A stretch of 64,000 bases of DNA from a virus, in the IMG/VR virus record IMGVR_UViG_3300030329_005813, positions 108,362 to 172,361 of that record, one strand, 5' to 3'. This document shows, piece by piece, positions 23,516 through 46,731 of this stretch. The position numbers and the translations under genes are program-made. The notes under the pieces were generated by a model that was not told the origin of the DNA, ran no database searches, and worked only from the letters and a program-made list of their open reading frames with translations. Each line of letters begins with the position of its first letter. The stretch's first letter is position 1.

Positions 23516-23527
23516 TTGCTTTATCCC

Positions 23528-25669: not shown

Positions 25670-25979
25670 TCACGTCATCCTCTTCTATGTCTTCTTCTGT
25701 GAGATATATAATGTCTTCAAATTTTTCTAATTGCTGAACAACACTTTCACCGTGTTGCATTAAATTATGCAAAGTTACATCGCCATAAAATGTTTCTAGT
25801 TCGTATACTGACTTGATATGTGATGTAAAATTTTCAATAATATCAAGCAAATCGTTTAAGTTTTCAGAAAAAAACATAAGTTTTTTTGTAAGATTCGACA
25901 AATACCAAAGAAAAAAAACATTAATCAATATAGAAAATAATAATATTACGCTTAGAATCAATATTAAAACGTTACTCAT
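25590..25979 (-). CDS. Small membrane-anchored protein
   Basis: A 129-residue protein with a strong N-terminal transmembrane helix (residues ~4-26, ILILSVILLFSILINVFFLW), a helical cytoplasmic segment with coiled-coil character (LSNLTKKLMFFSENLNDLLD), and an acidic, Pro-rich tail. Its start overlaps the stop of the zinc-ribbon gene; its last 80 bases overlap the sigma-factor start in a different frame. Function unknown. Confidence 0.7.
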   Translation of the reverse strand: MSNVLILILSVILLFSILINVFFLWYLSNLTKKLMFFSENLNDLLDIIENFTSHIKSVYELETFYGDVTLHNLMQHGESVVQQLEKFEDIIYLTEEDIEEDDVNGQEPEPTPEGSAEEKKIPAQIRFQI

Positions 25980-26235
25980 TAAAATACTCTTTTGTTAAAT
26001 TTTCTTTTTCTTGTTTTACTTCTTCTTTCGTCCGCTCTATAAAATCATTTGTGATTTGGCCTACGGGAAGATTGTCTTGTTTTTTTACTGTACTAGTATT
26101 AAATGGTGTAGAATAATCTCTTTGAAGTGAATTTTTTACTCCACACAACTTACAATCCGAAACAACCTCTGAGAAAGAATGAAATATACTCATTGTTTCC
26201 GAACAAGAGGCACATTTATATACATAAGTAGGCAT
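25972..26235 (-). CDS. FmdB-like zinc-ribbon protein
   Basis: An 87-residue protein starting MPTYVYKCASCSETMSIF, the standard opening of FmdB-family putative regulatory proteins, with two zinc knuckles (CASC near residue 8 and CKLC near residue 28). The C-terminal half is helical and charged (ERTKEEVKQEKENLTKEY). Small zinc ribbons of this type are common in T4-like phages, often near the sigma factor or DNA-processing genes. Role unproven. Confidence 0.8.
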   Translation of the reverse strand: MPTYVYKCASCSETMSIFHSFSEVVSDCKLCGVKNSLQRDYSTPFNTSTVKKQDNLPVGQITNDFIERTKEEVKQEKENLTKEYFNE

Positions 26236-26238
26236 TAA

Positions 26239-26439
26239 CTAGTATTCTTCTATATTTTCTTCATTTGGAATTCTCACAACAGGTGGATTTAAAATCTTTA
26301 AGCCATCCGTCGAGCTAATAAACTCAAAATCTTTAAGCACCGGAACAATATCAGATTGCTCCAAAAGTGACTTCTGTAAAGCCATCATTAAGGCGCCTAG
26401 GGCCTGATCTGATAAATTATATGTTTCTGTCTCACTCAT
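26239..26439 (-). CDS. Small helical protein
   Basis: 66 residues from MSETETYNLSDQALG. This ATG has an excellent AAGGAGAG site and its start overlaps the end of the dehydrogenase gene, whereas the longer frame would run deep into it. Residues 8-25 form an amphipathic helix (LSDQALGALMMALQKSLLEQ). No family recognised. Confidence 0.65.
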   Translation of the reverse strand: MSETETYNLSDQALGALMMALQKSLLEQSDIVPVLKDFEFISSTDGLKILNPPVVRIPNEENIEEY

Positions 26440-27301
26440 TTGTACTCTCCTTAATAATTGCTCTTCCGAGCAGTTTTTCCCAGTCTTTCTCTGGTCTAAC
26501 ATTTAGATTAGTTTTCCAAGCTCCATCTAGCACAGATGGTTCAACACCAATAGATCGAGCGTGACTCATCATTGCTTGGATATCCTTTGGAAAACAGCTT
26601 CCCCCAAAACCAAACTTGCCATCTGGTCCGGGTACAGATACGTGTGAGTGTCCTATGCGGCCATCACGCACAAATCCGTCTACTGCAACATTCCAATCAA
26701 CATTGCTTTTATCTGCTATCAGTCTCATTTCGTTCATAAACGAAACCTTGGTCGCAAAATAACAGTTATTCATATACTTAATAAACTCTGCTGTTTCAAA
26801 GTTTGTTTGTATAGTTGGTGTAGAGCCTCCGAATCTAATGCGAAAAAGCTCAGCCACCTTACTTGTATTTTTTGATTCTCCACCAAGAATAAATCTGGCT
26901 TGATTAATAAAATCAAACTTTGCCGATCTTTCTGTTAAGAATTCCGGATTGAACACAAGAGTTATATTGCTATATTTTCCCTGAAATGCTCTTGTTGTTC
27001 CTGGTATGACTGTTGAACGCACCAGGACGACACTACCATCTTTTGTCCCGTGCGCGTCTACTTCGCCAAGAACACTTTCTAAGATCGAAAGGTTGATGGA
27101 GCCATCAACATTTGATGGGGTAGGCACAGACAAGAAAATAAAATCTGACTCATCCAATACTTCGTCTAGACTGTGCGTTGACTTGGCTGGATTTTTATCA
27201 AAGATTCTTAACTTAGCCTGATCAAATCCAGTCTGTGGTGAAAACCCATAAGCAACTGAGGATCCGACAAAACCAAAACCAATGATCCCAATATTAATCA
27301 T
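26432..27301 (-). CDS. UDP-glucose/GDP-mannose dehydrogenase family protein, short form
   Basis: 289 residues. The N-terminal Rossmann domain (IGIIGFGFVGSSVAYGF) and central helical domain are present, with the catalytic cysteine in FGFGGSCFPKDIQAMMSHA. Standard enzymes are 390-450 residues and have a C-terminal UDP-binding Rossmann domain, which is missing here because the gene ends soon after the central domain. It may oxidise a nucleotide sugar as a compact form, or act on another activated sugar. It is the last gene of the glycan cassette and overlaps its neighbours by a few bases. Confidence 0.85.
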   Translation of the reverse strand: MINIGIIGFGFVGSSVAYGFSPQTGFDQAKLRIFDKNPAKSTHSLDEVLDESDFIFLSVPTPSNVDGSINLSILESVLGEVDAHGTKDGSVVLVRSTVIPGTTRAFQGKYSNITLVFNPEFLTERSAKFDFINQARFILGGESKNTSKVAELFRIRFGGSTPTIQTNFETAEFIKYMNNCYFATKVSFMNEMRLIADKSNVDWNVAVDGFVRDGRIGHSHVSVPGPDGKFGFGGSCFPKDIQAMMSHARSIGVEPSVLDGAWKTNLNVRPEKDWEKLLGRAIIKESTNE

Positions 27302-28155
27302 TGTAGTTTTTCCTTAAGCTGTTTAAAACAATTCGAAATACCTTCTTTAACATTAATTTTTGGTTCGAACCCTAATTTTTTTAATGGACTCATATTAGCT
27401 TTTGTAAATAATACATCACCTTTTCTTTTTTCTACATAATCAAACTGCACATCTGGGAAGTATTCGTTAACGATATCTTTCATTTCATTGAGTGAAATAT
27501 TGCTACCCGTACCAACATCATAGTGACGACCATTAAATGCTCCTTCGTATTCCATAGCAAAAATATTAGCTGAGACAACATCACTTTTATGAGCCATATC
27601 TCTACGTTGCTTGCCGTTACCAGTAATAAAAGGATTTTTACCTTCGCGGATATATCGCATCCAGTTAGCTACAGCTGTAGCATATGGACTATCTGCTTTT
27701 TGGTCAAAACTATATACATTAAAATAACGTAGCGTTACCGTATCAAGATCATACAAATCTGAATATAATTTAGTTTCTAGTTCGGACGTTAGTTTTTGTA
27801 ATGCGTATGGACTTGCGGGGCCGTCGCCATTACCCACAACAGATGAGGATCCAGAATAAATAAATCTTTTAACATTTTTTCTTTTGGCAAAGTCTAACAT
27901 TATACTTGTTGATAAAACATTATTCATCATAGTATGAATTGGCTGCTCTACACTATATGCAACGCGTGGAATACATGCTAGATGAAAAACATAATCAAAA
28001 TCATATTGTTCCAGTTTTTCTAAGCCATTTAAAATATCCCATTCGCTATTGTCCTTGTAATCAATTCCTACAACATTGTGTCCCATTGACACAAGTCTCC
28101 AATACAAGGTGCTTCCTATGTAGCCGCGATGGCCAGTTACTAAACAATTAGCCAT
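27298..28155 (-). CDS. NAD-dependent sugar epimerase/dehydratase (SDR family)
   Basis: 285 residues. NAD-binding GHRGYIGSTLYWRL (G-x-x-G-x-x-G), SSS motif in FIYSGSSSVVGNG, and the catalytic Y-x-x-x-K in SPYALQKLTSELE mark an extended short-chain dehydrogenase like GalE or related nucleotide-sugar epimerases. Full length for the family. It overlaps the dehydrogenase gene downstream (ATGA type), implying coupled translation. Substrate cannot be read from sequence; a UDP- or GDP-sugar is likely given the neighbours. Confidence 0.9.
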   Translation of the reverse strand: MANCLVTGHRGYIGSTLYWRLVSMGHNVVGIDYKDNSEWDILNGLEKLEQYDFDYVFHLACIPRVAYSVEQPIHTMMNNVLSTSIMLDFAKRKNVKRFIYSGSSSVVGNGDGPASPYALQKLTSELETKLYSDLYDLDTVTLRYFNVYSFDQKADSPYATAVANWMRYIREGKNPFITGNGKQRRDMAHKSDVVSANIFAMEYEGAFNGRHYDVGTGSNISLNEMKDIVNEYFPDVQFDYVEKRKGDVLFTKANMSPLKKLGFEPKINVKEGISNCFKQLKEKLQ

Positions 28156-28829
28156 TATTTATCTCCTTTTAATTTCTTATCATAACTTTGAACCTGCTCA
28201 GAATCTTTAGTCCTGTTCGATTCGTGAATCCTATACTTATAAAGGGGTAGGGGTAAATTGTATACCTTATACTTTTCTTTAAATCTTCGGATCATTTCGT
28301 GCCCCTCCCTCATCTTATAATCCTCATCATAAAAACCAACGTCACATAAAGACTCATATGTAAACATAATGCCACACGCAACAAACTCTTTTTCTGCGCT
28401 ATGACGACTCATAAGTTGACCCGTATTGTCAACTTTAAAATAATCGCAAGCAACGGCCTGACAGTTCATTTCTGAATTCATAATTCTAGGGCCGGAGTTC
28501 ATATCAAGAAATGTGGACAGCATATAGAGAAAGTGGCGCGAGACATAATCATCGGAATCAATCCTAACAAAATACTGTCCTAAACTATTTTGCAGTATTT
28601 TGTTTAGAGACGATGGTAGTCCCAAATTCTTTTCGTTATTAATCAATCGAATATTAAGGTGGTCTGAAAAAATATTACATACATCTTCCAGTCTTTCTTC
28701 CGGATCATCGTTGACTAAAATAATTTCAAACTTATCTTTTCCTATCGTTTGGTTAACAAGGCTTCGTAAACATCGATGAAGCCATCTTTTTTGTTTATAA
28801 CAGCTGATCCCTACTGTAATTTTATACAT
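28155..28829 (-). CDS. Glycosyltransferase family 2
   Basis: 224 residues with the GT-A fold opening [31 protein letters not shown], and the DxD metal motif in VRIDSDDYVSRHFL. The C terminus (MREGHEMIRRFKEKYKVYNL, YRIHESNRTKD) matches small inverting GT2 enzymes. The last residues of the upstream dehydrogenase overlap its start. Likely adds a sugar in the same glycan pathway. Confidence 0.87.
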   Translation of the reverse strand: MYKITVGISCYKQKRWLHRCLRSLVNQTIGKDKFEIILVNDDPEERLEDVCNIFSDHLNIRLINNEKNLGLPSSLNKILQNSLGQYFVRIDSDDYVSRHFLYMLSTFLDMNSGPRIMNSEMNCQAVACDYFKVDNTGQLMSRHSAEKEFVACGIMFTYESLCDVGFYDEDYKMREGHEMIRRFKEKYKVYNLPLPLYKYRIHESNRTKDSEQVQSYDKKLKGDK

Positions 28830-29716
28830 AACTCTAGTATGCCTTTCAAAGCCTTTGTTTGGCTTTCTACCGTTGCCCCCGCAACGTGAGGCGTAATTAC
28901 TATATTGTCTCTTTTAAGATTAAAAAGTTTAGACTGCCTAAGGTCTTCAATATTTTGTTCATTACACAAAACATCACAAGAATAAAAAATCTTATCTTCT
29001 ATAATAAGGTCATAAATGTAGTCTTCGTCTACAGTTTCGCCCCTCGATGTATTGACGACAATTAAATTTTCTTTAAAATTATCTAATACACCGTTGCTTA
29101 TTATTCCTTTAGTTTCATCTGTAAGATAACAACTTATACATAATATATCAACTTTTTGTAGGTTTGTCAAGGAAAAAACTCTTTTATATTGATAACTTCC
29201 GACATATGGGTCGTAGTACTCAACATTCATCCCAAAAGCCTTAGCATATTTGGCTATTTTTCTTCCTATCCTTCCGAGTCCAATAATCCCTATATTTTTG
29301 CCGGCCAGCTCATTTGACCGCAAAAATCTTTCATTTTCATCATCTCTCCATTTATCAACATTGTTTACGGCCGGCACAAACTTTCGAAAGGCATTCATAA
29401 TGTGCAACCAAGTAAACTCTGCGGAGGCGTGAATATTTTCAAGAATATCTCGATTATCCAAAAGGCATTTTACAGGAATATTCCTTAGGCCCAAATAATG
29501 CATATCTAGGTGGTTCACTCCTGTTGACGGAGTGCCAACTACTTTAAGGCTTGGATATTTAGCGAAATGATTCTTATCTAAAAATACATCGGTACCTGGG
29601 TTTACAATAATGCATTCTGGATCATGACTATCTAATGTATAACCCAGCGAATCAATAATTGAATTAAAATCTTGTATCTGTAAAAAATTAATTGGACATT
29701 CAATTTTAACGCGCAC
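28811..29716 (-). CDS. D-2-hydroxyacid dehydrogenase family (SerA/phosphoglycerate-dehydrogenase-like)
   Basis: About 301 residues from a GTG ([11 protein letters not shown]) preceded by GAGGAAA at good spacing; a TTG twelve bases upstream is less likely. The NAD domain is [20 protein letters not shown]; the catalytic set is Arg ([14 protein letters not shown]), Glu and His ([13 protein letters not shown]). Within a sialic-acid-type cluster such enzymes may make or reduce a keto-acid precursor or decoration, but no pathway step can be assigned. Full length for the family without the ACT domain. Confidence 0.85.
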
Positions 29717-30410
29717 TTCTTTCCTCAAGTAAAATTTCTGCTAATCTAAAATCCATAAATGTATCGATATTGACAGAGCAGTCTTCTGGCATTAAATATG
29801 GACGGCAATCATTACCATGCCTTGAGAACCAATCTACAATACATTCTCTTGTCATTGCAAAAATAGCTCCGTTTCTTATATAACAAGGCTCTAAGTCCTG
29901 CCTTCGTGAGCCTTCCCCCTCTGGGAATTCTGTGGTAAAGTCTCTAATTTGATCTTCTATAATCCTTTTCATCCTGACTGGATGTTTATCCTGGACCGAG
30001 GTTAGAGACGTTACGCTGTCGGCTCCGGTAGCAATTAATTTATCTACAGCTTCTACAATGTGTTTTGACGTCCTTAGAGGGGCCACACAAGGCAGTTCAA
30101 CCACATAATCATATGTTACCCCGTAATGTTTCTCCGAAGCCAGTACGGCGTGCTTAAGAGCGTCCCTAGACCATATATGATCTTGGGCCAACTCGTCTGG
30201 CCTCATAAACGGAACATCAGCGCCGAGATCTTTAGCAATTGAAGCAATTTCTTTGCAATCTGTACTAACAACAAGGTGTGTAAATCTTTTACTGGCTAGC
30301 GCTGCCTCAATAGTCCAAGCAATAAGTGGCTTGCCGTGAATCATTTTTATGTTTTTTCTTGGGACTCCTTTGGAGCCACCGCGAGCTAAAATTACTGCTA
30401 TTGTGTTCAT
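29706..30410 (-). CDS. neuA: Acylneuraminate (CMP-sialic acid) cytidylyltransferase, NeuA-like
   Basis: 234 residues, the usual length for NeuA. CTP-binding motif [20 protein letters not shown] is intact, with [27 protein letters not shown], and the downstream [17 protein letters not shown]. It activates a nonulosonic acid (sialic, legionaminic or pseudaminic type) by joining it to CMP, supplying the sialyltransferase-like enzymes encoded nearby. Translation is coupled to the upstream gene (shared base at 30410). Confidence 0.92.
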
Positions 30411-31240
30411 TATAGATCCTTCACTAAATTATTAATTTCATCTGCTAAGTTATTCATTATTAAAGTATAACGTTCTTTTTTTTCATTTATGCTAAGCCCT
30501 AAAACATCTAAAGATGCATATTCTTGAAGAATTTTATTTAAAACCGAATCTAAAACAACTTTTTTATTAGTATGTTTTATAACATCAATTAGCATCAATA
30601 TTTCAAGCAAACCATTATGCTTTTCTACGATAGTTTTATTGTGACTGACGGGTTTATTTTTTTGCAACATATGGCCGCCGCCGTGATACATTGTAAATCC
30701 AGTTATGTATACTTCTTTTGCATCAGAAGCTATCGACTCCATAATGGCGTTAAAACCAAGCTGGGGCCAAACATTATAAGGAGATTTAGAATTTATATTA
30801 GCCACTCTATTTTTACCATAACCATTCTCTGTGGCATAATCTTTTAAAATATATGCATACTGCTCGGAAGTATAGGACGTTGCTGAAATACCGTGATACA
30901 TTTTATTTTCTAGCTTAGTTCCTAGTTTGCATTCAGGGTGTCTGGTAAATTTAATGCTAGTCTTTGCCAACACATCATAATCTGCCTGATGGTTAACCAC
31001 CGAACTGTACATAACGTGCGTTTCGTCCCCAACAAAATCTTTATATGTATTAAACCCTTTCATTGGTAACCACTTAAGTCGAATTACGACGTCATATTCA
31101 TCGATTTTAGAACCATTTGTTTCCAACAAAATGTGCTTCGATGGTCCAACAATCGCAACTCGTTTTCCCTTTAAATAATTATTATATTGTTCTTCGGGCT
31201 TAATAGCGTTTAAAAAACTTTCTACTCTTTCTGGGGTCAC
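30410..31240 (-). CDS. Sialyltransferase-like protein (GT29-type motifs)
   Basis: 276 residues, GTG start right after the NeuB gene with AAGGTGG as ribosome site. Residues ~25-70 resemble the L-sialylmotif: [16 protein letters not shown], then [18 protein letters not shown] and a [11 protein letters not shown] segment, the nucleotide-binding core of GT29 enzymes. A second motif around [20 protein letters not shown] and [12 protein letters not shown] matches the S-motif region. Predicted to move sialic acid from CMP to a glycan acceptor. Lacks a membrane anchor. Confidence 0.75.
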
Positions 31241-31923
31241 TTAGCCACCTTAGAAATATTATTAAACTGCTGGCCGTACTCTCTAATCATTTTTAACTCT
31301 GACAAATCCATTGAGCCAATATGATCGTTCCCTTCCATTCCCTTATTTAAAGTAAAGTGTTTTTCTATTACTTGTGCGCCGTGGGCTACATTGTATAGTG
31401 CGTATGCTGGCCCGTAGGAGTGATCACTGAACCCTACTATTTTATCGTTGTAATAAAACTTTTGAAGATCCAAGAAACTTGTTGGATATTTAGAGATGCA
31501 ATTAAAATATTTAACGTTATTATACTCAAATGGCAACCACTCATTTCTCCACATACCCAATGAAATATATGTTAACTTATTAGTTGAAATAACCTTTTCA
31601 CATAATGCCGGCTCTTTTACGATTGTTCTGCTGGCAATCTTATACAGTTTAACGCCCAGAGTTTCACACCAATCAATTTTTTCTTCATCAAATACAGATG
31701 CAAAAAATTCTATACCGTGCGCTTCACATATATCTTTAATTTGCTTTACCTGACAAAAAGTAAACTCATTGCGTTTTCTTGACTCGTCTCCAAAAACTCT
31801 TACTGAATCATACAGCTGAAATTTTGCGTAATCGGCGCCTCCGACAGCAGACTGTCGAATTAGCTCTTCTATTTTACGAAAGTCTCCGTTATGATTGATT
31901 CCGATCTCTGATATAATCTTCAC
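31237..31923 (-). CDS. neuB: N-acetylneuraminate synthase-like protein (NeuB), catalytic domain only
   Basis: 228 residues from GTG with GGGGAATCAA upstream. The TIM-barrel features of NeuB are clear: ISEIGINHNGDFRKIEELI, GGADYAKFQLY, FFASVFDEEKIDW, KIASRTI, GFSDHSYGPAYALYNVAHGA and VIEKHFTLNKGMEGNDH. Usual NeuB proteins are ~340 residues with a C-terminal antifreeze-like (SAF) domain that closes the partner active site; that domain is absent here. It should condense phosphoenolpyruvate with an N-acyl hexosamine, feeding the NeuA enzyme downstream. Confidence 0.88.
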   Translation of the reverse strand: MKIISEIGINHNGDFRKIEELIRQSAVGGADYAKFQLYDSVRVFGDESRKRNEFTFCQVKQIKDICEAHGIEFFASVFDEEKIDWCETLGVKLYKIASRTIVKEPALCEKVISTNKLTYISLGMWRNEWLPFEYNNVKYFNCISKYPTSFLDLQKFYYNDKIVGFSDHSYGPAYALYNVAHGAQVIEKHFTLNKGMEGNDHIGSMDLSELKMIREYGQQFNNISKVAK

Positions 31924-32870
31924 TTGATTCCCCTTAAATTTTCAAAAATTTCAATTGTCTCTGTATATTCATATTGCTCTAAATATGGTTTGCACATCTG
32001 ATAAATAACTTTTAAAATGTTTGCGGCTCCGGAGGCCAATTTTTGATCCTCTAGACTTGGCAAGATGGTCGATTTATATTTTAATACCTCTGACTTAGGT
32101 GGCGTTGGTATTTTTAATTTACCCGATATCTGTAAAATATCTTGCAGTAACTCTATTTCTTCTTTGTTTTGCATTACAATTTTTTCAAATCTTATCGCGT
32201 GAACATTTTTAATTTTATGATTTTGTATGTCTAAATTTAGTCTATCTTGAATCATTGTCCACCGTAAGACATATAACAAATTCCACAAAACAGGCCTTAC
32301 CCGAGTATTAACTTGCCATCCAGTTTCAGACGTTGGTTGCATTTTCCATCTTAGATCACCAAGAGCAGTAAACAAATATCCAATAGCGTCGACCAAATCA
32401 ATACTATTTGCATTATTTTGGTAATTTGCCCTATCCTGCATAAGAAGTCTTAAAAAATAATTATCTGATTCATACATTGCGACATCTATAGGATCCCTAA
32501 CAACGTTAATAATTGATGACTCCGGAAAAGCACTGTTTATTAGCGGCGTCATTAAACAAAAAGTAGATAGTTTACAGCAATTATGTTTAGGGCCGTGTGG
32601 AGATCTAGATTGAATTATTCTGTCTCGAAAACTATCACTATCTTTTTGAGCGACCTCATCAAACGGCCACTTAGTTTCTAGTATATCTTGAAGACTACCG
32701 GGACTATAGTTGCCATCCATAGAATAAAAAGGCCCTGTTTTCCAAGCAAAAACATTATCATTTCTTGAGTTTAATCTTCGACCAAGATCATAGCCGTTAA
32801 TACTAGCTATATCTGCTATATAATAGGCCCCTGACCACCATACTCCTGATATGAAGATTTGCTCATGCAC
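31920..32870 (-). CDS. Sulfotransferase-like P-loop protein
   Basis: 316 residues. The N terminus (IFISGVWWSGAYYIADIASI) occupies the place of the 5'-phosphosulfate loop, and INVVRDPIDVAMYESDNYFL matches the 3'-phosphate (R-D-P-x-D-x-A) motif of PAPS-dependent sulfotransferases. The classical PRSGTT loop is altered, so activity is uncertain. Overlaps both neighbours by 4 and 8 bases. It would place a sulfate on the glycan or on a lipid/protein carrier. The alternative is a kinase-like P-loop protein. Confidence 0.65.
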   Translation of the reverse strand: MHEQIFISGVWWSGAYYIADIASINGYDLGRRLNSRNDNVFAWKTGPFYSMDGNYSPGSLQDILETKWPFDEVAQKDSDSFRDRIIQSRSPHGPKHNCCKLSTFCLMTPLINSAFPESSIINVVRDPIDVAMYESDNYFLRLLMQDRANYQNNANSIDLVDAIGYLFTALGDLRWKMQPTSETGWQVNTRVRPVLWNLLYVLRWTMIQDRLNLDIQNHKIKNVHAIRFEKIVMQNKEEIELLQDILQISGKLKIPTPPKSEVLKYKSTILPSLEDQKLASGAANILKVIYQMCKPYLEQYEYTETIEIFENLRGIK

Positions 32871-33537
32871 CGATAATCTCCAAGTTTTTTAACGTTGGCA
32901 AATCTGCATTGGTAATCATCTTGAAATTAACATCGGGATTGCGCTTCACCACGTCAATAAAGTGCTCAACCATATTTGTTCTATCCATTTTGGCCTTTTG
33001 CTGCTTCAATGGGGCCTGCCAAGGACGTCGGAAAAGATAGTCATTCTGGTAGAAATCAAGTCCAACAACCCACAAATTCTTGGGTTTCAGCATATGAGCA
33101 GCGTAAATAATGGCCAAAACACCAGTATTTGGATGTTTTTTAGCGTAATTGCCCACCCCTTGAAAGAAATCGTTGTATCCAAGCAGCTCTTCTGGTAGCA
33201 TATGGCATTTAAGATTATAGCTTTCATAAAGACGTTTCATACCCAATATCATATGATCTAATTCACATTTGGTAAATTGAATATTTTGAATGTTAAGCTC
33301 TTTGTAATGTTCAGGTAGCAATGGGGCCGTATCTAGACGGTTTACAAAGTGAACTATTTCTTTACCTTTTAGTTCCGGTGCAACAATAGAGTACTCTGAG
33401 TCTTCGTTGTTTATGTTTCTATCAAAGTTGTTGACCATATAACAGTGATTAAACTTGTCGGATACTTGTGGTAGTCTGGCTACACTTGCACCTTTTAAAA
33501 TGACACCAAAGTCATTTAAGTTTTTTGGAAAGTACAC
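32863..33537 (-). CDS. Second sialyltransferase-like / GT29-related protein
   Basis: 224 residues, GTG start after GAGGTAACA. NDFGVILKGASVARLPQVS and the later NTGVLAIIYAAHMLKPKNLW continuing VVGLDFYQN resemble the two nucleotide-binding motifs of bacterial sialyltransferases (the S-G-x-x-A-I-x-x-A helix then a G-x-D-F strand). Shares this arrangement with the protein at 30410-31240 but is otherwise diverged. Predicted glycan-modifying transferase; donor not certain. Confidence 0.65.
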   Translation of the reverse strand: MYFPKNLNDFGVILKGASVARLPQVSDKFNHCYMVNNFDRNINNEDSEYSIVAPELKGKEIVHFVNRLDTAPLLPEHYKELNIQNIQFTKCELDHMILGMKRLYESYNLKCHMLPEELLGYNDFFQGVGNYAKKHPNTGVLAIIYAAHMLKPKNLWVVGLDFYQNDYLFRRPWQAPLKQQKAKMDRTNMVEHFIDVVKRNPDVNFKMITNADLPTLKNLEIIGA

Positions 33538-33539
33538 TG

Positions 33540-34382
33540 TTACCTCGTAATCATAAAACTGCGAACGATTTTACGACTGCCTGAATCCATATGTTCGTGA
33601 CAAGCAAACTTAGCTAAATGATCATTGCTTACATTATTATACAACCCTCGATGAAACCCATCTGTGTGTATCGTGCGAACCGGTTCATACCCTGCCATTT
33701 TGAACAGCTGTGGTTGTGGAACTGGCGTTGCAATAACCCACTTGCTGTTGAACCCAATCTTAAAATACTCTCGAAGAATCTTTTCAAAATCATTGTCATT
33801 GTCATAGGTGTTTGGATGGACTTCAAGAAGAATATTAGTGTGCCCTTCGTTCTTAGAAAAATAGTTTAGGCCACCTTCAAAAATCTTGACTTCGTGTCCT
33901 TCAACATCCATTTTTATGAAATTAGGATAACGACGGTCTTGCAGAAACGTCTCAAGCGAGTAGCAAGGTATATTTTTCTTGTTAACACTATATTTGTTCC
34001 TCTTAACACTGCTTAAGTTAGGTTTTGAGGCTTCCCAAAACTCTACTACACCATCGTGTCCAGAAATGGCACACTTAGTAACTTCACACCTATCGTTATA
34101 ATCATTATCTTCTACATTTTTACGCAATATATCAATACTCTGAGAGTCTGGTTCTACGGCGTATACAAAGCCTTCAGGGCCTACGTTTCGTAGCATAGGC
34201 AAAGTAGTGTATCCAATGTTACCACCCAAGTCTAGGCACACCATACCCTCCTTAACGGTCTCATTAAGCAGAGACATAAAAGCCTTTTCGCGGCCGCCTT
34301 GATAGTACAAGACACTAGAGATGCCTCCGTCATTAATGTTTAGATTCATTTTAAAATCGTCAATCTGTTTTTGTACAAGCAT
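33540..34382 (-). CDS. FkbM-family SAM-dependent methyltransferase
   Basis: 280 residues, ATG after GAGGAGACACTAA. Motifs typical of FkbM: MVCLDLGGNIGYTTLPML (SAM motif I), YAVEPDSQSIDILRKNVED, and FIKMDVEGHEVKIFEGG. These enzymes O-methylate sugars and are common in O-antigen and capsule clusters. The C terminus is extended by ~70 residues relative to minimal members. Confidence 0.88.
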   Translation of the reverse strand: MLVQKQIDDFKMNLNINDGGISSVLYYQGGREKAFMSLLNETVKEGMVCLDLGGNIGYTTLPMLRNVGPEGFVYAVEPDSQSIDILRKNVEDNDYNDRCEVTKCAISGHDGVVEFWEASKPNLSSVKRNKYSVNKKNIPCYSLETFLQDRRYPNFIKMDVEGHEVKIFEGGLNYFSKNEGHTNILLEVHPNTYDNDNDFEKILREYFKIGFNSKWVIATPVPQPQLFKMAGYEPVRTIHTDGFHRGLYNNVSNDHLAKFACHEHMDSGSRKIVRSFMITR

Positions 34383-35286
34383 TTAGTGTCTCCTCTAGAA
34401 AAGTTGCATATCTTTCAGATACATCAACCATATCAATATTACTATTATAACCGTTTGTTATAACTTTGTCAAACTTCATTTCAGGTAAATTTGTAGTACT
34501 AGCTGGGCTATAGTCCCACGGCTCTTCATATATTACAATCGCATCGGGTCCAGCTATCTCTTTAGTGCCAGCTATCGATGAACAAATAACTTGACACCCA
34601 GCGGCTCTTGCATCCACCACTGTGTTTGGACAAGAATCATATCTTGCTAAATGTATAAAATATTTAGATCTCTTGTATAGGGCATATAAGTTTTGGATAT
34701 CAATATCACCAACAAAAAATATTCTATCGTGTATAATAGTGTCTTTGACGTCAACGTGACCAGCAACAACTAAACAATCGTTAGGCCCGGAATGTTCTAA
34801 GAAATATTTTATATTTTCTTTTAATCTTTTCCATCTGCGCCAAGTTGCGGCGGAACACCATATGGTCTCAAACTTATCAAGAATTGGGTGACCCAAGGGC
34901 GCTATAGAGTTCATATACTCTATGTCAGCACCGTTGTTGACTACGGTATAGTTTGGGTGCTCTCCAAAATATTTAAATGAAATATCTCTATTAAACTCTG
35001 ATTGGAAGATTACGCCGTCAGCTTGGCTATAGGAGCGCAATATATTACTATTACGCAATTCATAGTTTTGATCCGGGTCAAAATAAATACCGTCTAGTCT
35101 TAATACTAGTGGTTCTGTTTTGACTATTTGTCGAGTTTCAATAAATGACAGCTTGATATCGGCACCATCCTGCGGAGGGACCAAGCATCGATGACCTAGA
35201 CGATCTAGATATTTAATAAGCTTTGTCCCAAAATGATTTGGGCCTGAGCGCGACATTATGTTAACGTTATCAAATAATACGTTCAT
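34360..35286 (-). CDS. Glycosyltransferase family 4
   Basis: About 308 residues from ATG (MNVLFDNVNIMSRSGPNHFG); an in-frame TTG 18 bases upstream would reach into the methyltransferase gene and is less likely. GT-B features: SRSGPNHFGTKLIKYLDRLG in the acceptor domain, VGDIDIQNLYALYKRSKYFI, and the donor-site ARYDSCPNTVVDARAAGCQV continuing ICSSIAGTKEIAG. Retaining transferase for the phage glycan. Confidence 0.85.
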   Translation of the reverse strand: MNVLFDNVNIMSRSGPNHFGTKLIKYLDRLGHRCLVPPQDGADIKLSFIETRQIVKTEPLVLRLDGIYFDPDQNYELRNSNILRSYSQADGVIFQSEFNRDISFKYFGEHPNYTVVNNGADIEYMNSIAPLGHPILDKFETIWCSAATWRRWKRLKENIKYFLEHSGPNDCLVVAGHVDVKDTIIHDRIFFVGDIDIQNLYALYKRSKYFIHLARYDSCPNTVVDARAAGCQVICSSIAGTKEIAGPDAIVIYEEPWDYSPASTTNLPEMKFDKVITNGYNSNIDMVDVSERYATFLEETLNACTKTD

Positions 35287-35287
35287 T

Positions 35288-35899
35288 TTATTTTGGTGTT
35301 GCAATAATAACTTGACACTCTTTTTGCATTGGTGTCATAAAGTGTTTTTCGATATTAAAATGTTGTGAGATATAATTTCCAAACTCTCTAAATGACCACT
35401 CCCTAACATGCATAGTGTTGTGTGGTGGCCCATTAACTTTTACATCCCAACCAAAACTTTTCTGTAGAGCCTGTATAACATCTCTATCGGGAGTCGAAAT
35501 AACAAGGTGCTTAAAGTTTATATTTCCAATAAACGCTAGAAGCTCATCTGGATCTAAAACGTGTTCCACAACATCCGAACATATAATCAAATCAAATGGC
35601 TCTTCCGGGGGACTATTGAAGTCTGATTTTCTAAAATCGTAAAGAGGGTATTTGTCTTTAATAAAGGACAAATTGGGCTCTAGATCTAGACCGACAAACT
35701 TTTTATCTCTAAAATACTTTATGAGCTTGTAGGCTGAACCGCAACCAATATCTAGTACTGTTTTATATTTGTTTTCAACGCATAACTTGCGAGCAGCTTG
35801 ATACACTTCATCTTGAAACTGATCTGTATGCGACATTTGTTCGCAAGTTACGAACTCTGTTCGATGCGTATACCCTTCATAAATGCAGTAATCTTTCAT
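35288..35899 (-). CDS. Class I SAM-dependent methyltransferase
   Basis: 203 residues. Motif I KTVLDIGCGSAYKLIKYF, motif II VGLDLEPN, and FDLIICSDVVEHVLDPDEL (the E-H box of Methyltransf_11/23 enzymes) are present. ATG start after GAGGCCC. Likely methylates a sugar or a glycan end group; lies one base before the next glycosyltransferase. Confidence 0.88.
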   Translation of the reverse strand: MKDYCIYEGYTHRTEFVTCEQMSHTDQFQDEVYQAARKLCVENKYKTVLDIGCGSAYKLIKYFRDKKFVGLDLEPNLSFIKDKYPLYDFRKSDFNSPPEEPFDLIICSDVVEHVLDPDELLAFIGNINFKHLVISTPDRDVIQALQKSFGWDVKVNGPPHNTMHVREWSFREFGNYISQHFNIEKHFMTPMQKECQVIIATPK

Positions 35900-36629
35900 A
35901 GGGCCTCTTAAAACGTATTTGTTGTTCTATTCTAAGCTGATCTTTACGATGGATCCTATCAACAGAAATAGGATTTTTTCTATTGTATACATACATAATC
36001 TGCTTAATCTCACGAAAATGTTCTGGGCCGGACATTTCGGCCATCGGGTACATCATTGCTTGATCAAATGTAAACTTATAAAAGTCGCCGTCTTCATCTT
36101 TTAAATCATCAAGTTTAATTTTTAAAAACAACTCTCTCCTAAAAGTTCTAAGATGTGATATGGTCCACGGCTTCATACGAATGTTGCCTTGCCAGTATCT
36201 ATCAACAATACTCGGACAGCTTATCATACCGGCCATATTATCGATATATGAACCAGCAGTCATCCAAACATCGCCAGAGTTATATACATCATTAAGCTTA
36301 CTTAAAATGCTGTCAGACGGAAACCAATCATCTCCGTCAAGCGTAACAATAATAGAATTTTCTTTGGCGCCTTGAATATGGTGGTATAGATTGTATAAAG
36401 CTTTTTGATTTGTTTTGTTGTTTACAATCTTGACCTTTGCAGCAGTCTCTGCTTCATCAAGTACTTGTTGTACAACTGTGGCTGTTTCATCTGTTGAACA
36501 ATCATTAATGTATACTATATCATAGTTATTGTAGTCTTGCCCCAGCGCTGAGCCTAGGCACTTTTGTACCCAGGACTCATTGTTGTACGATGGTATAATT
36601 ATAGTAAAATGATTATCCATTAAAAGCAT
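35877..36629 (-). CDS. Glycosyltransferase family 2
   Basis: 250 residues. IIIPSYNNESWVQKCLGSAL, INDCSTDETATVVQQ, and the metal-binding VTLDGDDWFPSDSILSKL identify a GT-A family 2 enzyme. The first ATG (MLLMDNHF) has GGATGA upstream; a second ATG nine bases further is possible. Overlaps both flanking genes. Confidence 0.88.
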   Translation of the reverse strand: MLLMDNHFTIIIPSYNNESWVQKCLGSALGQDYNNYDIVYINDCSTDETATVVQQVLDEAETAAKVKIVNNKTNQKALYNLYHHIQGAKENSIIVTLDGDDWFPSDSILSKLNDVYNSGDVWMTAGSYIDNMAGMISCPSIVDRYWQGNIRMKPWTISHLRTFRRELFLKIKLDDLKDEDGDFYKFTFDQAMMYPMAEMSGPEHFREIKQIMYVYNRKNPISVDRIHRKDQLRIEQQIRFKRPYERLLHL

Positions 36630-38718
36630 TCATCCAAAAATAATCTTTTCTAGTTTTTAGATACTTTATAATTTCTTCATTTGGCTGATTAAACCACTCT
36701 TCATTACGATGCTGAACATACTCGTTTGTATGTAGCTGGCATCCTAATAGCTTGGCTTCAATGGCTAACCTGGGGCAAGTATCGTAGCCAGCTGGCAAAG
36801 CACAGAGGCCTTTGGCCTGCGCTAACCTTTTAAGAAACTGGTTGTATTCCATTCCAAAAATAACTTCGTGTTCAACATTGTTTTCTTTACACCAATTTTC
36901 TGACTGCGTGGCGCCCTTAACCCAACTATTTGATCCAAGAACAATCCATTTATTATCGCGAGGCTCATTTTCATACTTTCGATTTAAAAGATCAATTCTT
37001 TCAAAGAACTGATCATCAAACAAGGAGGACAATACATATGTATTTTTTCCATTAACGCTAGGTAACGTATCTTGGTATATCTTTCGCTGCTCTTCGGACA
37101 TAAAAAATGTTGACTTAGAGTTGGTAACAAACTCTTCTATAATAGCACCACGCTCTGTTGCTTTGTAATCACAACTTTCGCCTTCAATGTAATCATATAA
37201 AATTGGATTTCTATGCTTACAAAATTTATAATCAAACTCTACAAATGAATACTGTATTTTACTATCGATAATATAACGAATAACTTCCGAGCTTAGGCCG
37301 GCTATATTTCCAAATACCCATTTACTCTCTTTGCAAAAATCCACAAATTCTTCGTCAACCATAGAAGAGTTAACCAGCGTAGTCGAACCAGGACTTGATT
37401 CAAATAATGTCTTAAGGCTCAACTCTGCCCCGCCTGCATATTGCTGGTGGAATAGATCTGACACAAATACATACTCTGTGGCCTCTAGCTTTGCATCGCC
37501 AACAACGTGGTTAGTAAATTGATCGTACAGCTTGTCTTTTGTAAAATTTTCTAAAATATGCTCTTGTAATGCTTGCGCCATTTTTAAAGCTTTATCATAT
37601 CTTTTTCTTATCTTACGAAGCTCCATCTTGTAGCTTCCCTGGTGTGGAAAGCACCACATTGAGCCCTCTTCTATAACACCTTGCCATAGCGCTTCTTTTT
37701 GAACAGGGCGCATATCGTAAGTTACATTATTAAAAAGCGCTCGGACTTTTTTCTTCTTACCGCCACTGGGGCCAGTGGCCATAGCATACAAGAAATCTGT
37801 TTGACCGCTCCAGCCTGGGGCGATAATTGGCAAGCCGTTGTATGCTGCCTCAAATAAAGGTAAGCCATACCCTTCACCGTGAGTAAGCGAAATCATACAC
37901 TTAACTTTAGGGTGTTGATACAAAGCTGTCAACTCTTCAGGAGACATATCTCCGTGCAACAAATAAACCTTACATTTTCTATCTGGGTAGGCCTTCAGCA
38001 ATGGTTTAAGTCTTTCTTCTAAGGTAAACTCTTTATCAATCTTGCAATTAGCTTGTGAGTTGGTCTTAATTATTAGTCCGACCTCTTCATCGATATTCTC
38101 TTCAATAAACCATTTAATAGAGTTTTCTATATTTTTTCGCGTTGACCATTGCGCCATTAAAAGATAGTTAAAATCATACTCTAAGTCTAAATTAAAATTT
38201 GCATCTGGCTCAAACTCTCTGACCGGGTAGTTAACTACTTCGATGGGTGTTTTGACTTGTAAATTAATTTTTTCACCGGTTTGTTTATTGTACGCTTCAT
38301 AGGCTGAGTTAACGAACACATCTTTGGAGTGATTCGAGACAACAATAATCTTGTCCATCATATTGGCTTTCTCAATCCAAACCGGTGCTACTCGGGTAGT
38401 TTCGATGCCGGCGGTGTAACCAATATTGACATCGGCCATTTTTTCCCACTCATTAGGAATGGTAATTTGGAGGGATAGATCAAAATGAGGATTTTCTTCT
38501 GACTGTAGATACATAGCAGTGCGTCGAATGTGGTTATCCATCCATTGACGCTCTTCATTATCATCATTAATCCAATTGGTATTTCCCCAAGGTATTGGAA
38601 CTACATAAATGTCAAATTTATCTTCGTGCTTCCTAAGCGATCTTAGGGCAAACCTGCTCTGCTCACCATAGCCAGACATAGATAAGACTGGTCCTCTTAC
38701 GATAATTTTAAACTTCAT
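36613..38718 (-). CDS. Tandem GT-B glycosyltransferase (two-domain fusion)
   Basis: 701 residues, roughly two glycosyltransferase lengths. The first unit (residues ~1-400) is a GT4: SMSGYGEQSRFALRSLRKH at the start and THGEGYGLPLFEAAYNGLPI continuing IAPGWSGQTDF as donor site. The second unit (~420-700) has VFVSDLFHQQYAGGAELSLK and GYDTCPRLAIEAKLLGCQL, the same donor motif in reduced form, like the protein at 34360-35286. Two transferases in one chain could add successive residues of a repeating unit. Strong GGAGGTAGC ribosome site. Confidence 0.85.
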   Translation of the reverse strand: MKFKIIVRGPVLSMSGYGEQSRFALRSLRKHEDKFDIYVVPIPWGNTNWINDDNEERQWMDNHIRRTAMYLQSEENPHFDLSLQITIPNEWEKMADVNIGYTAGIETTRVAPVWIEKANMMDKIIVVSNHSKDVFVNSAYEAYNKQTGEKINLQVKTPIEVVNYPVREFEPDANFNLDLEYDFNYLLMAQWSTRKNIENSIKWFIEENIDEEVGLIIKTNSQANCKIDKEFTLEERLKPLLKAYPDRKCKVYLLHGDMSPEELTALYQHPKVKCMISLTHGEGYGLPLFEAAYNGLPIIAPGWSGQTDFLYAMATGPSGGKKKKVRALFNNVTYDMRPVQKEALWQGVIEEGSMWCFPHQGSYKMELRKIRKRYDKALKMAQALQEHILENFTKDKLYDQFTNHVVGDAKLEATEYVFVSDLFHQQYAGGAELSLKTLFESSPGSTTLVNSSMVDEEFVDFCKESKWVFGNIAGLSSEVIRYIIDSKIQYSFVEFDYKFCKHRNPILYDYIEGESCDYKATERGAIIEEFVTNSKSTFFMSEEQRKIYQDTLPSVNGKNTYVLSSLFDDQFFERIDLLNRKYENEPRDNKWIVLGSNSWVKGATQSENWCKENNVEHEVIFGMEYNQFLKRLAQAKGLCALPAGYDTCPRLAIEAKLLGCQLHTNEYVQHRNEEWFNQPNEEIIKYLKTRKDYFWMNAFNG

Positions 38719-39974
38719 GCTACCTCCTCAAAAGTCCACGGCCTATACTCTTTACGAGTTGACCAAGAACCATATTTTTCGTGAATGTGATCCATCAAAT
38801 CAACCCACTTTTGTCCAAAATCAGCAAAATTGTAATTTTTAAGAACGTGCTCGCGTCCGGCAGCTCCTAATTTTTGTCGCTCTTCTTTTGGCATATTATA
38901 CATTGTTCGAAGTGCATTTAAAAAATCTTCTTTATTTAACCTATCTTCGTAGATATAAGGCACCTCTTGAGAGCCAATAATAGTTTTTGACGCAGGAGTC
39001 AATCCAATGCCAAACCAGTTTTCTCCATCGGTAACTTGTTCTTGAAGGCCGCCTGTCATATTAACTATAATAGGTACTCCACTTGAGAGAGATTCTAAAG
39101 TTGCCAACCCAAAACCTTCAGCATCAGAAATATTGATTGTACAATCTGAAATGTTATACATCTTGGCTAACTGATCTGGAGCAACCTTTTGATCTGAAAT
39201 CAATATACGATTATCAGTAGCCCCAATATTTTTCATAATAGCTACTAAATCTTGACCGTGTTGATCGGTAGGATCTGTATGCATAATTAAACGAACATTT
39301 TCTGGACCGACTTCATCGGCAAACTCATTAAACCAGTGAATTAGTGTGCCACTTTGTTTACGTCGTGCATTTCTGTTGTTCCAAAAAAACGTAAACCTGT
39401 CGTCAAAGTCAGGAAACATATGTTCCATAAAATGTTCTTTTTCTTCATCAGTCCGAGGCTTAAAGATGTCGGCGTCGACTGCATGAGGCATATAATGATT
39501 TTCAACATCTGGGGCAACGTTGTTAACAATATCGTATGTTACCTTTGAGATACTAGCAATTACATCATTTGAGTCATAAAACTTCTTATTAAACATAGGG
39601 AGCGGATAATTGTCCCAAACATGATAATAAATCATAGGGACATTTTTACGAATCTCATTTTCGATTTGCCACAGCCAACCATAAAACCTAGGATCCGTCA
39701 TAAACCATACCATATCTGGCTTTTCATTCCAGATTACAGAACGAACCATTTCAACTGTTCCGTATCCATCTACAGGCTGAATAATCCAGTCGTCGCCGAA
39801 GCCTTCTACCTTTTGTGGTTTATAGTCTGGGTGCTTAATCGCACCGCCGAAACATATAAACTTATATCTACCAGTCTTGATTAACGCCTCAATAATGTAC
39901 TTTGTCTGTGTGCCAACACCAGATGGAGCCATCGGGTGATCTGATATCACAAAAACTTTAATTTTTTCGCTCAT
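38715..39974 (-). CDS. Glycosyltransferase family 4
   Basis: 419 residues, standard GT-B length. APSGVGTQTKYIIEALIKTG near the start, a core with FTFFWNNRNARRKQSGTLI, and the E-x7-E donor motif in DAEGFGLATLESLSSGVPII continuing VNMTGGLQEQVTDGENWFG. Probably the first committed transferase of this cassette by position; its start has AGAGG upstream and is ten bases after the nuclease gene. Confidence 0.92.
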   Translation of the reverse strand: MSEKIKVFVISDHPMAPSGVGTQTKYIIEALIKTGRYKFICFGGAIKHPDYKPQKVEGFGDDWIIQPVDGYGTVEMVRSVIWNEKPDMVWFMTDPRFYGWLWQIENEIRKNVPMIYYHVWDNYPLPMFNKKFYDSNDVIASISKVTYDIVNNVAPDVENHYMPHAVDADIFKPRTDEEKEHFMEHMFPDFDDRFTFFWNNRNARRKQSGTLIHWFNEFADEVGPENVRLIMHTDPTDQHGQDLVAIMKNIGATDNRILISDQKVAPDQLAKMYNISDCTINISDAEGFGLATLESLSSGVPIIVNMTGGLQEQVTDGENWFGIGLTPASKTIIGSQEVPYIYEDRLNKEDFLNALRTMYNMPKEERQKLGAAGREHVLKNYNFADFGQKWVDLMDHIHEKYGSWSTRKEYRPWTFEEVA

Positions 39975-42128: not shown

Positions 42129-43505
42129 TTATAAATATTTTGCTGCCATTGTTGCTACCTTAGATCTTTCGCCTTTTCGTAGAGTGACGTGACCTGACAG
42201 ATCAAGCGCTTTAAATTTTTCAACAGCGTGAACCAAGCCTGATGAAGTCTCATTTATATAGATGTTATCTATTTGCTCTATATCGCCTGTTAGAACGATT
42301 TTAGTCCCTTCCCCTACCCTAGTAAGGATTGTCTTGATCTCGTGTGCTGTGAGGTTCTGAGCCTCATCTATGACGATGTATGCATTGGCTATAGAGCGAC
42401 CTCGAATATAGGTAAGCGCTTCCATCTCAATAATACCTCGATCTAAATACTCATCTAAAGTTGTTTGATCGTCGCCAGTCAAAAACTTTAAATTATCTTG
42501 AATTGGCGCTAACCAAGGAGCCATTTTATCTTGCATAGAGCCTGGAAGGTACCCAATATCTTTGCCCATAGGCATTACAGGTCTTGACACGACAAGTTTT
42601 TTATACAATGAACTTTCAGTTGTAGAGTGCTTCTTACTTGAAGAGCCAAGCTTATTAGATAAGCGATCTACCGGATAATTTGGCATAACCTGCTCTAAGC
42701 CGGCCGCAATGGCCAATAGTGTCTTGCCTGATCCGGCTTTTCCGACTAAAGATATTACCTGAATGTCTGGATCCATTAAAAGATCTAGGGCGAACGCTTG
42801 TTCTTTATTTTTGGCTTTGACACCCCATAGGCCGGTTTTAAATTCACAGACTCGTAGAAGACTAGACCTATAATTTAAAAACCTACAGAGTGCTGTTTTC
42901 TTGTCGTTTGAACTTGAAACAAGCATAATAAACTGATTTGGGTGCAGACCAGGGTGTTCCTCTTCATCGATTATTATAATTTCGTCATCATAAAAGTGAT
43001 CGATGGTTTGATCATCCACTAATATTTCTGTAAAACCAGTGTATAGATCAGAGTCTTTTTTAATTATTTGATTTTCTGTGTAGTCTTCGCTTACTAGGCC
43101 AAGAGAATCACAAATGACACGCATATTAATATCGCGAGACACAACAATAGTTTTTCTGTTTCCATTTTCTTGGTTTTCTGCTAATGCGGTGGCAATAATT
43201 ATGTGGTCAGAAATGTTAGGATCTAAATCTGGTGGGCACTGAATATTAGCAGAACGTACCTTAAGTATGCCCTTTCCTTTTCCGATTCTTACGCCTTGTT
43301 GTAAGTTGCCTTTGGCTCTTAGTTCATCAAAAGTACGAATAATTGTTCGTGCATTAGAGCCAACACCATCTTGTCTTTTTTTGTGTTTATCAATTTCTTC
43401 TAAAACTTTTAAGGGTATTATAATATCATTATTTGAATAACTGTATATACAATTTGCATCTGATAAGCAAGCACTAGTGTCTAAGACGTAGGTTTTTTTG
43501 GCCAT
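42129..43505 (-). CDS. phoH: PhoH-family ATPase with N-terminal PIN domain
   Basis: 458 residues. Residues 1-135 form a PIN-type nuclease domain (TYVLDTSACLSDANC, PLKVLEEIDKHKKRQDG, IIIATALAENQENG and VVSRDINMRVICDSLG, with the expected Asp residues). The PhoH ATPase follows: Walker A VGKAGSGKTLLAIAAGLEQV (~residue 255) and Walker B YIVIDEAQNLTAHEIK with LTRVGEGTKIVLTGDIEQID. PIN-PhoH proteins are RNA helicase/nucleases; phoH is a well-known phage-carried host gene. Its transcript begins from a late-type motif right after a terminator. Confidence 0.93.
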   Translation of the reverse strand: MAKKTYVLDTSACLSDANCIYSYSNNDIIIPLKVLEEIDKHKKRQDGVGSNARTIIRTFDELRAKGNLQQGVRIGKGKGILKVRSANIQCPPDLDPNISDHIIIATALAENQENGNRKTIVVSRDINMRVICDSLGLVSEDYTENQIIKKDSDLYTGFTEILVDDQTIDHFYDDEIIIIDEEEHPGLHPNQFIMLVSSSNDKKTALCRFLNYRSSLLRVCEFKTGLWGVKAKNKEQAFALDLLMDPDIQVISLVGKAGSGKTLLAIAAGLEQVMPNYPVDRLSNKLGSSSKKHSTTESSLYKKLVVSRPVMPMGKDIGYLPGSMQDKMAPWLAPIQDNLKFLTGDDQTTLDEYLDRGIIEMEALTYIRGRSIANAYIVIDEAQNLTAHEIKTILTRVGEGTKIVLTGDIEQIDNIYINETSSGLVHAVEKFKALDLSGHVTLRKGERSKVATMAAKYL

Positions 43506-45821: not shown

Positions 45822-45833
45822 ATGTAAATAGAT
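45822..45833 (-). promoter_or_regulatory. Late-promoter-like motif (ATCTATTTACAT)
   Basis: Minus-strand ATCTATTTACATAAAGAG between the tmRNA 3' end and the phosphoesterase ATG. A variant of the recurring motif at the usual distance from a start codon. Confidence 0.35.
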
Positions 45834-46165
45834 GGAGGTGGCGGGATTCGAACCCGCGTCCGCAATAATTTTCAATTCAAGTCATTCACAGGCTTGGATA
45901 GTTTTTACTCCACAAACTAACAAATGTAGGCCTTTTTATCCAACTATTTTTGGCCAATAATAGCTCGGGTGTTTTATTTTCAGCAGAACCATCTGCTTAT
46001 CTGGATTTGGGTAATAAGGTAACCAGAGACCCCACGATTAAGCCGCTAAGCGAACAGATTCGAAATGATTATTGTTATTGGCAATTATCAAGTTGTTTGA
46101 TTTTTAAGTCTCACGACTGCCTGCACTATCTTTTTCCATTACCCCGTCGAAACCAAAGCACCCCC
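45833..46165 (-). ncRNA. ssrA: Transfer-messenger RNA (tmRNA)
   Basis: One-piece tmRNA of about 333 bases. The 5' end GGGGGTGCTTTGGTTTCGAC continues with GGGGT, and the 3' end reads GGACGCGGGTTCGAATCCCG then CCACCTCCA. Together they form the alanyl tRNA-like domain: acceptor GGGGGTG/CACCTCC with the G3-U70 pair that marks it for alanyl-tRNA synthetase, and a GTTCGAATC T loop. CCA is not encoded. The mRNA-like part carries a tag frame ending in LAA. tmRNA rescues stalled ribosomes and tags the products for proteolysis. It begins 8 bases after a pilin-like gene, so it probably matures from a shared transcript. Confidence 0.95.
46038..46082 (-). other. tmRNA proteolysis-tag reading frame
   Basis: From resume codon GCC the frame reads A-N-N-N-N-H-F-E-S-V-R-L-A-A then TAA. 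The C-terminal L-A-A matches the degradation signal recognised by ClpXP-type proteases. The Asn run and H-F-E-S-V-R middle are unlike the common (A)ANDENYALAA tag. Confidence 0.85.
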
Positions 46166-46173
46166 TTAATATA

Positions 46174-46326
46174 TTATATTAAGTTGGTAATAATTGTGCT
46201 TACAACATTATTAAAATCAATTGTAAAAGTAACCCAATAAGTTACTATTAATGTTACCATTAACCCACTAAATATTCCATACTCTACAGCTGTGCTACCA
46301 ACATCATTTTTAAAAAATCTATTCAT
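46174..46326 (-). CDS. Flp/Fap-type IVb pilin-like peptide (50 residues)
   Basis: 50 residues with an AGGGAG ribosome site. The sequence has the Flp pilin layout: short basic leader (MNRFFKNDVG), cleavage glycine at residue 10, then STAVEYGIFSGLMVTLIVTY and a hydrophobic helix to the end. Glu at +5 and Tyr at +6 after the glycine give the G-(x)4-E-Y motif cut by TadV-type prepilin peptidases. Flp pilins are the subunits of Tad adhesion pili. No Tad assembly genes are in the window, so this would use, block or mimic the host system. Preceded by a late-type motif; 8 bases before the tmRNA. Confidence 0.82.
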   Translation of the reverse strand: MNRFFKNDVGSTAVEYGIFSGLMVTLIVTYWVTFTIDFNNVVSTIITNLI

Positions 46327-46362
46327 TTTTTTCTCCCTATACGCCCTTTCTTGAGATGAGCC

Positions 46363-46375
46363 AAATAAATAGTAT
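46363..46375 (-). promoter_or_regulatory. Late-promoter-like motif (ATACTATTTATTT) before pilin and tmRNA
   Basis: Minus-strand AATACTATTTATTTGG directly after the stop of the Fis-like gene and 37 bases before the pilin ATG. It would drive pilin and tmRNA together. Confidence 0.45.
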
Positions 46376-46377
46376 TT

Positions 46378-46731
46378 CTAATTTTCAAAGTATGATATTG
46401 GTTTGTATTTTTTCTTTAATTTCTGGAAATAATCCGGTCTCAGTCCCAAAAGTCTCATAGCTTCCACTTGAGTTCTGGTAGCTGAGTAAGCATACTTAAA
46501 CATAGCATCTTTTACTATGTTTGTCAAGTTATGCCATATAGGAAATCCATAAAGTCTATTATTAACTGGCTTACTGGCTAACTCCATTTTAAGACCAATT
46601 ATTTCTTCAAGAGTTAAATTACTGAGCATTATTTCAAAGTCAATATTTATTTTTTTCTCTTGACGTAGCTTCTTAGATAGACTATAATAGGTATTACGTC
46701 CTTTCCTTAATTTCTTTCTTTTCCAAGACAT
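46378..46731 (-). CDS. Small DNA-binding regulator with Fis-like C-terminal helix-turn-helix
   Basis: 117 residues. A basic N terminus (MSWKRKKLRKGRNTYYSLSK) precedes a helical domain; the C terminus (YSATRTQVEAMRLLGLRPDY continuing FQKLKKKY) fits the Fis-type HTH, in which an A-x-x-L-G-I-x-x-x-x-L core lies at the end of the protein. It starts only 6 bases after a sigma70 -10 element, with no ribosome site, so a leaderless mRNA is likely. Early expression and an HTH suggest a regulator of the phage or host program. Confidence 0.65.
   Translation of the reverse strand: MSWKRKKLRKGRNTYYSLSKKLRQEKKINIDFEIMLSNLTLEEIIGLKMELASKPVNNRLYGFPIWHNLTNIVKDAMFKYAYSATRTQVEAMRLLGLRPDYFQKLKKKYKPISYFEN

Follow-up and report, generated by a model that had tools for sequence, protein, structure and literature searches.

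The window analyzed here, a 64,000-nucleotide stretch of a viral genome (positions 108,362–172,361 of IMG/VR record IMGVR_UViG_3300030329_005813), contains a short gene predicted to encode a Flp-like prepilin, the precursor of a Tad-type pilin subunit. The gene lies on the minus strand (46174–46326; 153 bases, stop codon included), starts with ATG, and translates to 50 residues, MNRFFKNDVGSTAVEYGIFSGLMVTLIVTYWVTFTIDFNNVVSTIITNLI; the plus strand across the same interval contains many stops. The layout of the peptide is MNRFFKNDVG/STAVEYGIFSGLMVTLIVTYWVTFTIDFNNVVSTIITNLI, where the slash marks the predicted cleavage site. On its 5′ side, the gene is bordered by a conserved gene of 117 amino acids (46378–46731, minus strand), which has 260 relatives in viral contigs and no Pfam or PHROG family, and on its downstream side by a transfer-messenger RNA (tmRNA; 45833–46165, minus strand, identified with ARAGORN) with the tag ANNNNHFESVRLAA.

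The leader (46297–46326) comprises 10 residues, two of them basic, and ends with a glycine at position −1, so that cleavage after Gly10, as predicted from the sequence and a profile alignment, would fall between 46297 and 46296. The predicted mature pilin (46177–46296) has 40 residues, begins STAVEYGIFSG, and carries Glu+5 and Tyr+6. In the AlphaFold2 model of the pilin, residues 8–49 form one long helix (mean predicted local distance difference test score of 84), with no globular domain; a Foldseek search with this model returned nothing, as would be anticipated from a solitary helix. A Shine–Dalgarno sequence, AGGGAG (46333–46338, minus strand), is located 6 nt from the ATG, and the motif ACTATTTA (46366–46373, minus strand) lies 40–47 nt upstream of it. 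An initial annotation of this DNA had claimed a prepilin leader, a cleavage glycine, a S-T-A-V-E-Y stretch with Glu+5 and Tyr+6, a hydrophobic helix, a strong ribosome site and a late-type motif, and all of these are present. We searched for a strict prepilin signature that combines the leader, the glycine and the Glu+5 and Tyr+6 residues with an uncharged stretch; the window has a single occurrence, and 60 simulated windows generated as first-order Markov copies have none.

In a Pfam search, the only family found for the peptide was Flp_Fap (PF04964), with an E value of 2e-5 and 44 of 46 model positions covered. The similarity expected from the initial annotation was thus found, but the score of 24.7 bits falls short of the curated 32.2-bit cut-off. 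Two homologues encoded at the same site in related phages exceed this cut-off (L021, 32.5 bits; L027, 36.1 bits), and the family assignment of the window peptide leans on its relatives. A profile built from four phage pilins and searched against the whole PDB matched nothing but Tad pilins of Caulobacter, 8u2b (E = 2.5e-4) and 8u1k. Position 11 of the profile aligns with residue 1 of the mature Caulobacter chains, and the predicted cleavage site therefore agrees with the solved structure. PHROGs and NCBIfam held no usable family for the window peptide or its homologues. The phage pilin resembles the Flp/Fap type IVb (Tad) major pilins, including Caulobacter PilA (8u2b, 8u1k), in its short leader ending in glycine, in Glu+5 and Tyr+6, in a mature chain that is a single helix of about 40–45 residues, and in profile similarity. 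Unlike these pilins, it is encoded by a phage without a tad locus and stands behind a promoter motif common to phage structural genes; moreover, its profile score is weak and its C-terminal half has diverged. Taking the profile search, the cleavage-site register and syntenic homologues in five other lineages together, we consider the Flp-like identity put forward in the initial annotation, and the reading of the frame as a real gene for a predicted class III (Flp/Tad-type) prepilin, to be well supported.

Searching viral contigs with the window pilin as a single sequence retrieved nothing, and the family was reached only through the neighboring 117-residue gene, used as a marker to sample 80 viral loci. 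Five other lineages (L002/L003, L021, L027, L043 and L081/L082) have a frame of 45–52 residues with the same anatomy between this marker and the tmRNA. In L041/L042, whose markers share 74% identity with that of the window, the tmRNA starts 1 base past the marker and there is no pilin gene. Because five other lineages carry the gene and L041/L042 lack it, the pilin gene is optional cargo at one site. The absence from close relatives that could have spoken against a genuine gene is therefore seen in L041/L042, but not in the five lineages that carry the gene at the same site. A seventh phage, G029, has a Flp-like frame at a different place.

The site between the marker and the tmRNA is a cargo hotspot. 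Another small membrane protein (MTRKEALIKSLIWRF...), which by eye resembles DUF2061, is encoded there either alone or together with the pilin (L081, 5380–5586; L067, 5369–5590; L063, 2690–2848). The tmRNA tag differs among relatives. The tmRNAs of the window and L027 are 82% identical and the corresponding markers 59%, and because the former value exceeds the latter, the tmRNA may recombine too.

Seven phage pilins were compared, and the only invariant residues are F4, G10 (−1), E15 (+5) and Y16 (+6), which are mainly the residues that processing and assembly would need. Most pairs are 20–38% identical. Two pairs illustrate that the similarity of the pilins does not follow the relatedness of the phages. 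The markers of L021 and L043 are 89% identical and their pilins 32%; at the DNA level, identity is mostly 80–100% in the flanks on both sides and 44–59% within the pilin gene. This contrast is the pattern expected of a part that is matched to a host or a receptor. Conversely, L027 and L081 have markers that are 52% identical and pilins that are 75% identical, with nonsynonymous and synonymous divergences (dN and dS) of 0.17 and 2.8, respectively, a ratio that is rough, given the shortness of the gene and a dS close to saturation. The values for this second pair point to exchange combined with purifying selection. Overall, the pilin gene resembles a cassette for which it matters which type is present.

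The carrier of this cassette is a lytic T4-like phage. The window is part of a virus record of 172,361 bases (G000) with a T4-type terminase, the nearest isolate match of which is that of Flavobacterium phage immuto (45%); this match is not decisive for the host. A tad/rcp/cpa locus is the usual genetic context of Flp pilins, although it is not a sequence criterion for them, and the window gene is neither in nor near such a locus. The search for pilus machinery covered three components: the prepilin peptidase (Peptidase_A24), the T2SSE ATPase and TadE. Neither Peptidase_A24 nor T2SSE was found in the 172-kb record or in eight relatives (nine records tested), and neither the Pfam model (PF07811) nor a phage-TadE profile matched in G000. 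The lack of nearby Tad machinery noted in the initial annotation thus extends, for these three components, to the whole record, and a functional pilin would therefore depend on the Tad machine of the host. The hosts of these phages are probably marine. Two possible pointers to the host were discarded as too weak to name one: phage TadE proteins are nearest (33–34%) to TadE of metagenome-assembled genomes of high-GC Proteobacteria/Deltaproteobacteria, and one such genome has a tmRNA tag starting with ANNN. Flp homologues are common across that class.

In the 172-kb genome, the coding strand bears 33 copies of the motif that lies upstream of the pilin gene and the opposite strand bears one; about five would be expected on each. 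Copies of ACTATTTA stand directly 5′ of capsid-like, sheath-like and tube-like genes (roles judged by eye from size, order and the start of the sequence rather than by profile search), as well as of the window pilin and the L002 pilin. At L027, the motif has one mismatch, and L021 and L081 have no good copy. Based on its strand bias and placement, the motif is probably a late promoter element of this phage group, and its position 5′ of both the structural-like genes and the pilin makes late expression of the window pilin likely.

Some relatives encode a second pilin-type protein. TadE (PF07811) exceeds the Pfam cut-off in the records of four relatives that carry Flp (G001, G003, G040 and G041), with the TadE genes located elsewhere in the genome, beside dUTPase or tRNA genes. 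Among marker-bearing records, TadE occurs in four of nine with Flp and in one of 40 without (Fisher p = 0.003; 0.011 after dereplication by lineage), in a sample in which many records are fragments and the Flp-negative lineage counts are not strictly dereplicated. TadE/TadF pseudopilins share the prepilin-type start of the phage Flp but are not present in the phage of the window. The model of a phage TadE shows a long helix and three strands, as expected of a minor pilin, and gave no significant match in Foldseek. The TadE-type minor pilins of related phages, found at differing genome places, apparently form a phage-specific group; those in G001 (C1:90764–91195), G040 (C1:26788–27225) and G049 (C1:63035–63466) are 37–62% identical to the one in L027 (7088–7504).

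Lone phage-borne Flp genes also occur in another phage type. In the IMG/VR contigs L132 (4974–5153), L138 (4974–5180), L142 (4974–5156) and L144 (4974–5156), which are the Flp matches that were taken further, a canonical Flp gene scoring 68–72 bits, above the cut-off, lies beside a terminase_3 gene, and L132 and L138 also have portal_3-type genes. The Flp of this group is much nearer to bacterial Flp than the window pilin is and occupies another site; unrelated phages have captured Flp pilins separately. Most other IMG/VR Flp matches (L126–L137 and the like) appear to be ordinary bacterial-type Flp and were set aside. In a GC-rich virus contig of 42 kb (G052; L149, L153), a Flp-like gene lies near a TadE-like gene. 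In a tblastn search of 50,697 isolated-phage records, neither the pilins of the window and L027 nor TadE or a canonical Flp had a convincing match, a result in which low-complexity filtering may hide some matches; a weak match to a Listeria phage (E = 0.5) was dismissed as chance.

Because the residues for processing and assembly are kept, the phage machinery is absent and the variation is cassette-like, the phage pilin may be a substrate for the Tad machine of the host. Regarding its function, we infer, with a probability of about 0.45, that a swappable gene supplies a prepilin that is processed by this machine late in infection and that alters or blocks pili as phage receptors. The prepilin would be made late and enter the inner membrane, where the host's prepilin peptidase would cut the leader; the cut pilin would then enter the host's Tad assembly machine and co-assemble with, or displace, the host pilin, leaving the pili jammed or re-coated. 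The doomed cell and its debris would then be closed to adsorption and entry by pilus-dependent phages, whether competitors or the phage's own released progeny. The TadE minor pilin that some relatives encode might act likewise at the base or tip of the pilus.

In Caulobacter, strain NA1000 does not adsorb phage PhiCb5, and two PilA substitutions that alter contacts with Mat may explain this loss (PMC11067988). Cells with pilA-stop60L, in which PilA has a C-terminal extension, are retraction-deficient and resistant to PhiCb5 (PMC13170226). It is therefore plausible that a foreign pilin would abolish the pilus as a receptor or change it. Some phages are known to exclude others by shutting down type IV pili with small proteins (PMC8764522). 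Among such proteins, PfsE from Pseudomonas phage Pf4 acts on PilC, and Tip of D3112 and Aqs1 of DMS3 act on PilB; all three target host pili and stop phages that depend on them (PMC8764522, PMC11436027). Their binding partners are PilC or the PilB ATPase, and none of them is described as a prepilin, whereas the window protein is a pilin-type subunit for which a comparable effect is proposed by analogy. In the open-licence papers searched, we came across no phage with a Tad pilin of its own, encoded as a swappable cassette and in some cases accompanied by TadE. This agrees with the initial annotation, which was aware of no function reported for Flp pilins encoded by phages. As far as this literature shows, the Flp pilin family and pilus-targeting phage proteins were known, and a phage-supplied Tad pilin had not been described.

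An alteration of host pili would be in keeping with the cassette-like variation, the motif of late type and the co-occurrence of TadE, but these observations do not choose among poisoning of pilus assembly, blocking of receptors and decoration of the host, the three uses suggested in the initial annotation. Late timing would suit both the shielding of progeny from re-adsorption to dying cells or debris and the exclusion of rivals. Several points weigh on the other side. Exclusion genes of lytic phages are not usually expressed late, the peptide's own Flp_Fap score is under the curated cut-off, and the phage of the window has no TadE match; furthermore, both the presence of Tad pili in the host and a match between phage and host pilins are assumptions.

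Other explanations account for part of these data. The phage pilin could form Tad pili that are altered yet functional and that make the infected cell adhere or aggregate differently, such that progeny meet new hosts, which would be augmentation rather than blockade. The conserved helix and motifs appear assembly-competent, and the TadE partner of some relatives suits building as well as blocking; yet the late-type motif leaves a new filament little time and most relatives do without the gene, and we regard this explanation as rather unlikely. Somewhat less likely still is a small late membrane peptide, a lysis helper or other, that derives from Flp and no longer uses the pilus machine. Its small size, promoter motif and single hydrophobic helix would suit such a role, as would the possible cell-wall hydrolase (judged by eye) adjoining the Flp-like frame in G029. 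A plain membrane peptide, however, needs none of G−1, E+5 and Y+6, which are kept in all seven pilins despite the divergence elsewhere, and this explanation leaves the co-occurrence with TadE unaccounted for.

That the pilin is a virion component made late with the particle, for example a pilin-derived fiber or a membrane-contact part, seems improbable to us: the motif is indeed common to capsid and tail genes and the variation resembles that of receptor-binding parts, but the gene is optional and far from the structural cluster, and polymerization of class III prepilins requires the inner membrane and a pilus motor. The shortness of the peptide and its score below the Pfam cut-off are what one would see in a recently acquired, functionless fragment of a host gene or in a chance frame. 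The occupation of one site in six lineages, dN far below dS in the informative pair (L027/L081), the ribosome site and promoter motif, and the absence of the signature from simulated DNA make this explanation very hard to sustain.

Additional features were observed in the window and its relatives. A run of about 20 minus-strand genes encoding 200–700 residues (22571–39974), two of which, among those tested, match phage glycosyltransferase families, is a possible sugar-modification island. A gene at 42129–43505 encodes a PIN domain fused with a PhoH ATPase. L007 (7054–8625, 12919–14046 and 16066–17082) and L008 (5464–6468), which belong to the same phage, encode proteins that by eye resemble GroEL, IMP dehydrogenase, adenylosuccinate synthase and glutamine synthetase.

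Returning to the proposed alteration of host pili, a broader idea, which we offer tentatively and with less confidence than the proposal for the single gene, is that lytic T4-like phages hold an exchangeable library of Tad pilins, with Flp at the site next to the tmRNA and TadE elsewhere, that would rebuild or jam host pili late in infection. The pilin type would be selected by the host or by competing phages, and the site would preserve the traces of an arms race with the Tad pilus receptor at stake. If the prepilin is indeed processed and inserted into host pili, it would represent a new way of remodeling the surface of an infected cell, and it would suggest that Tad pili are contested phage receptors in the bacteria that these phages infect. 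At 153 bases, the gene lends itself to direct tests in Caulobacter, for which both Tad pili and pilus-dependent phages serve as laboratory tools.
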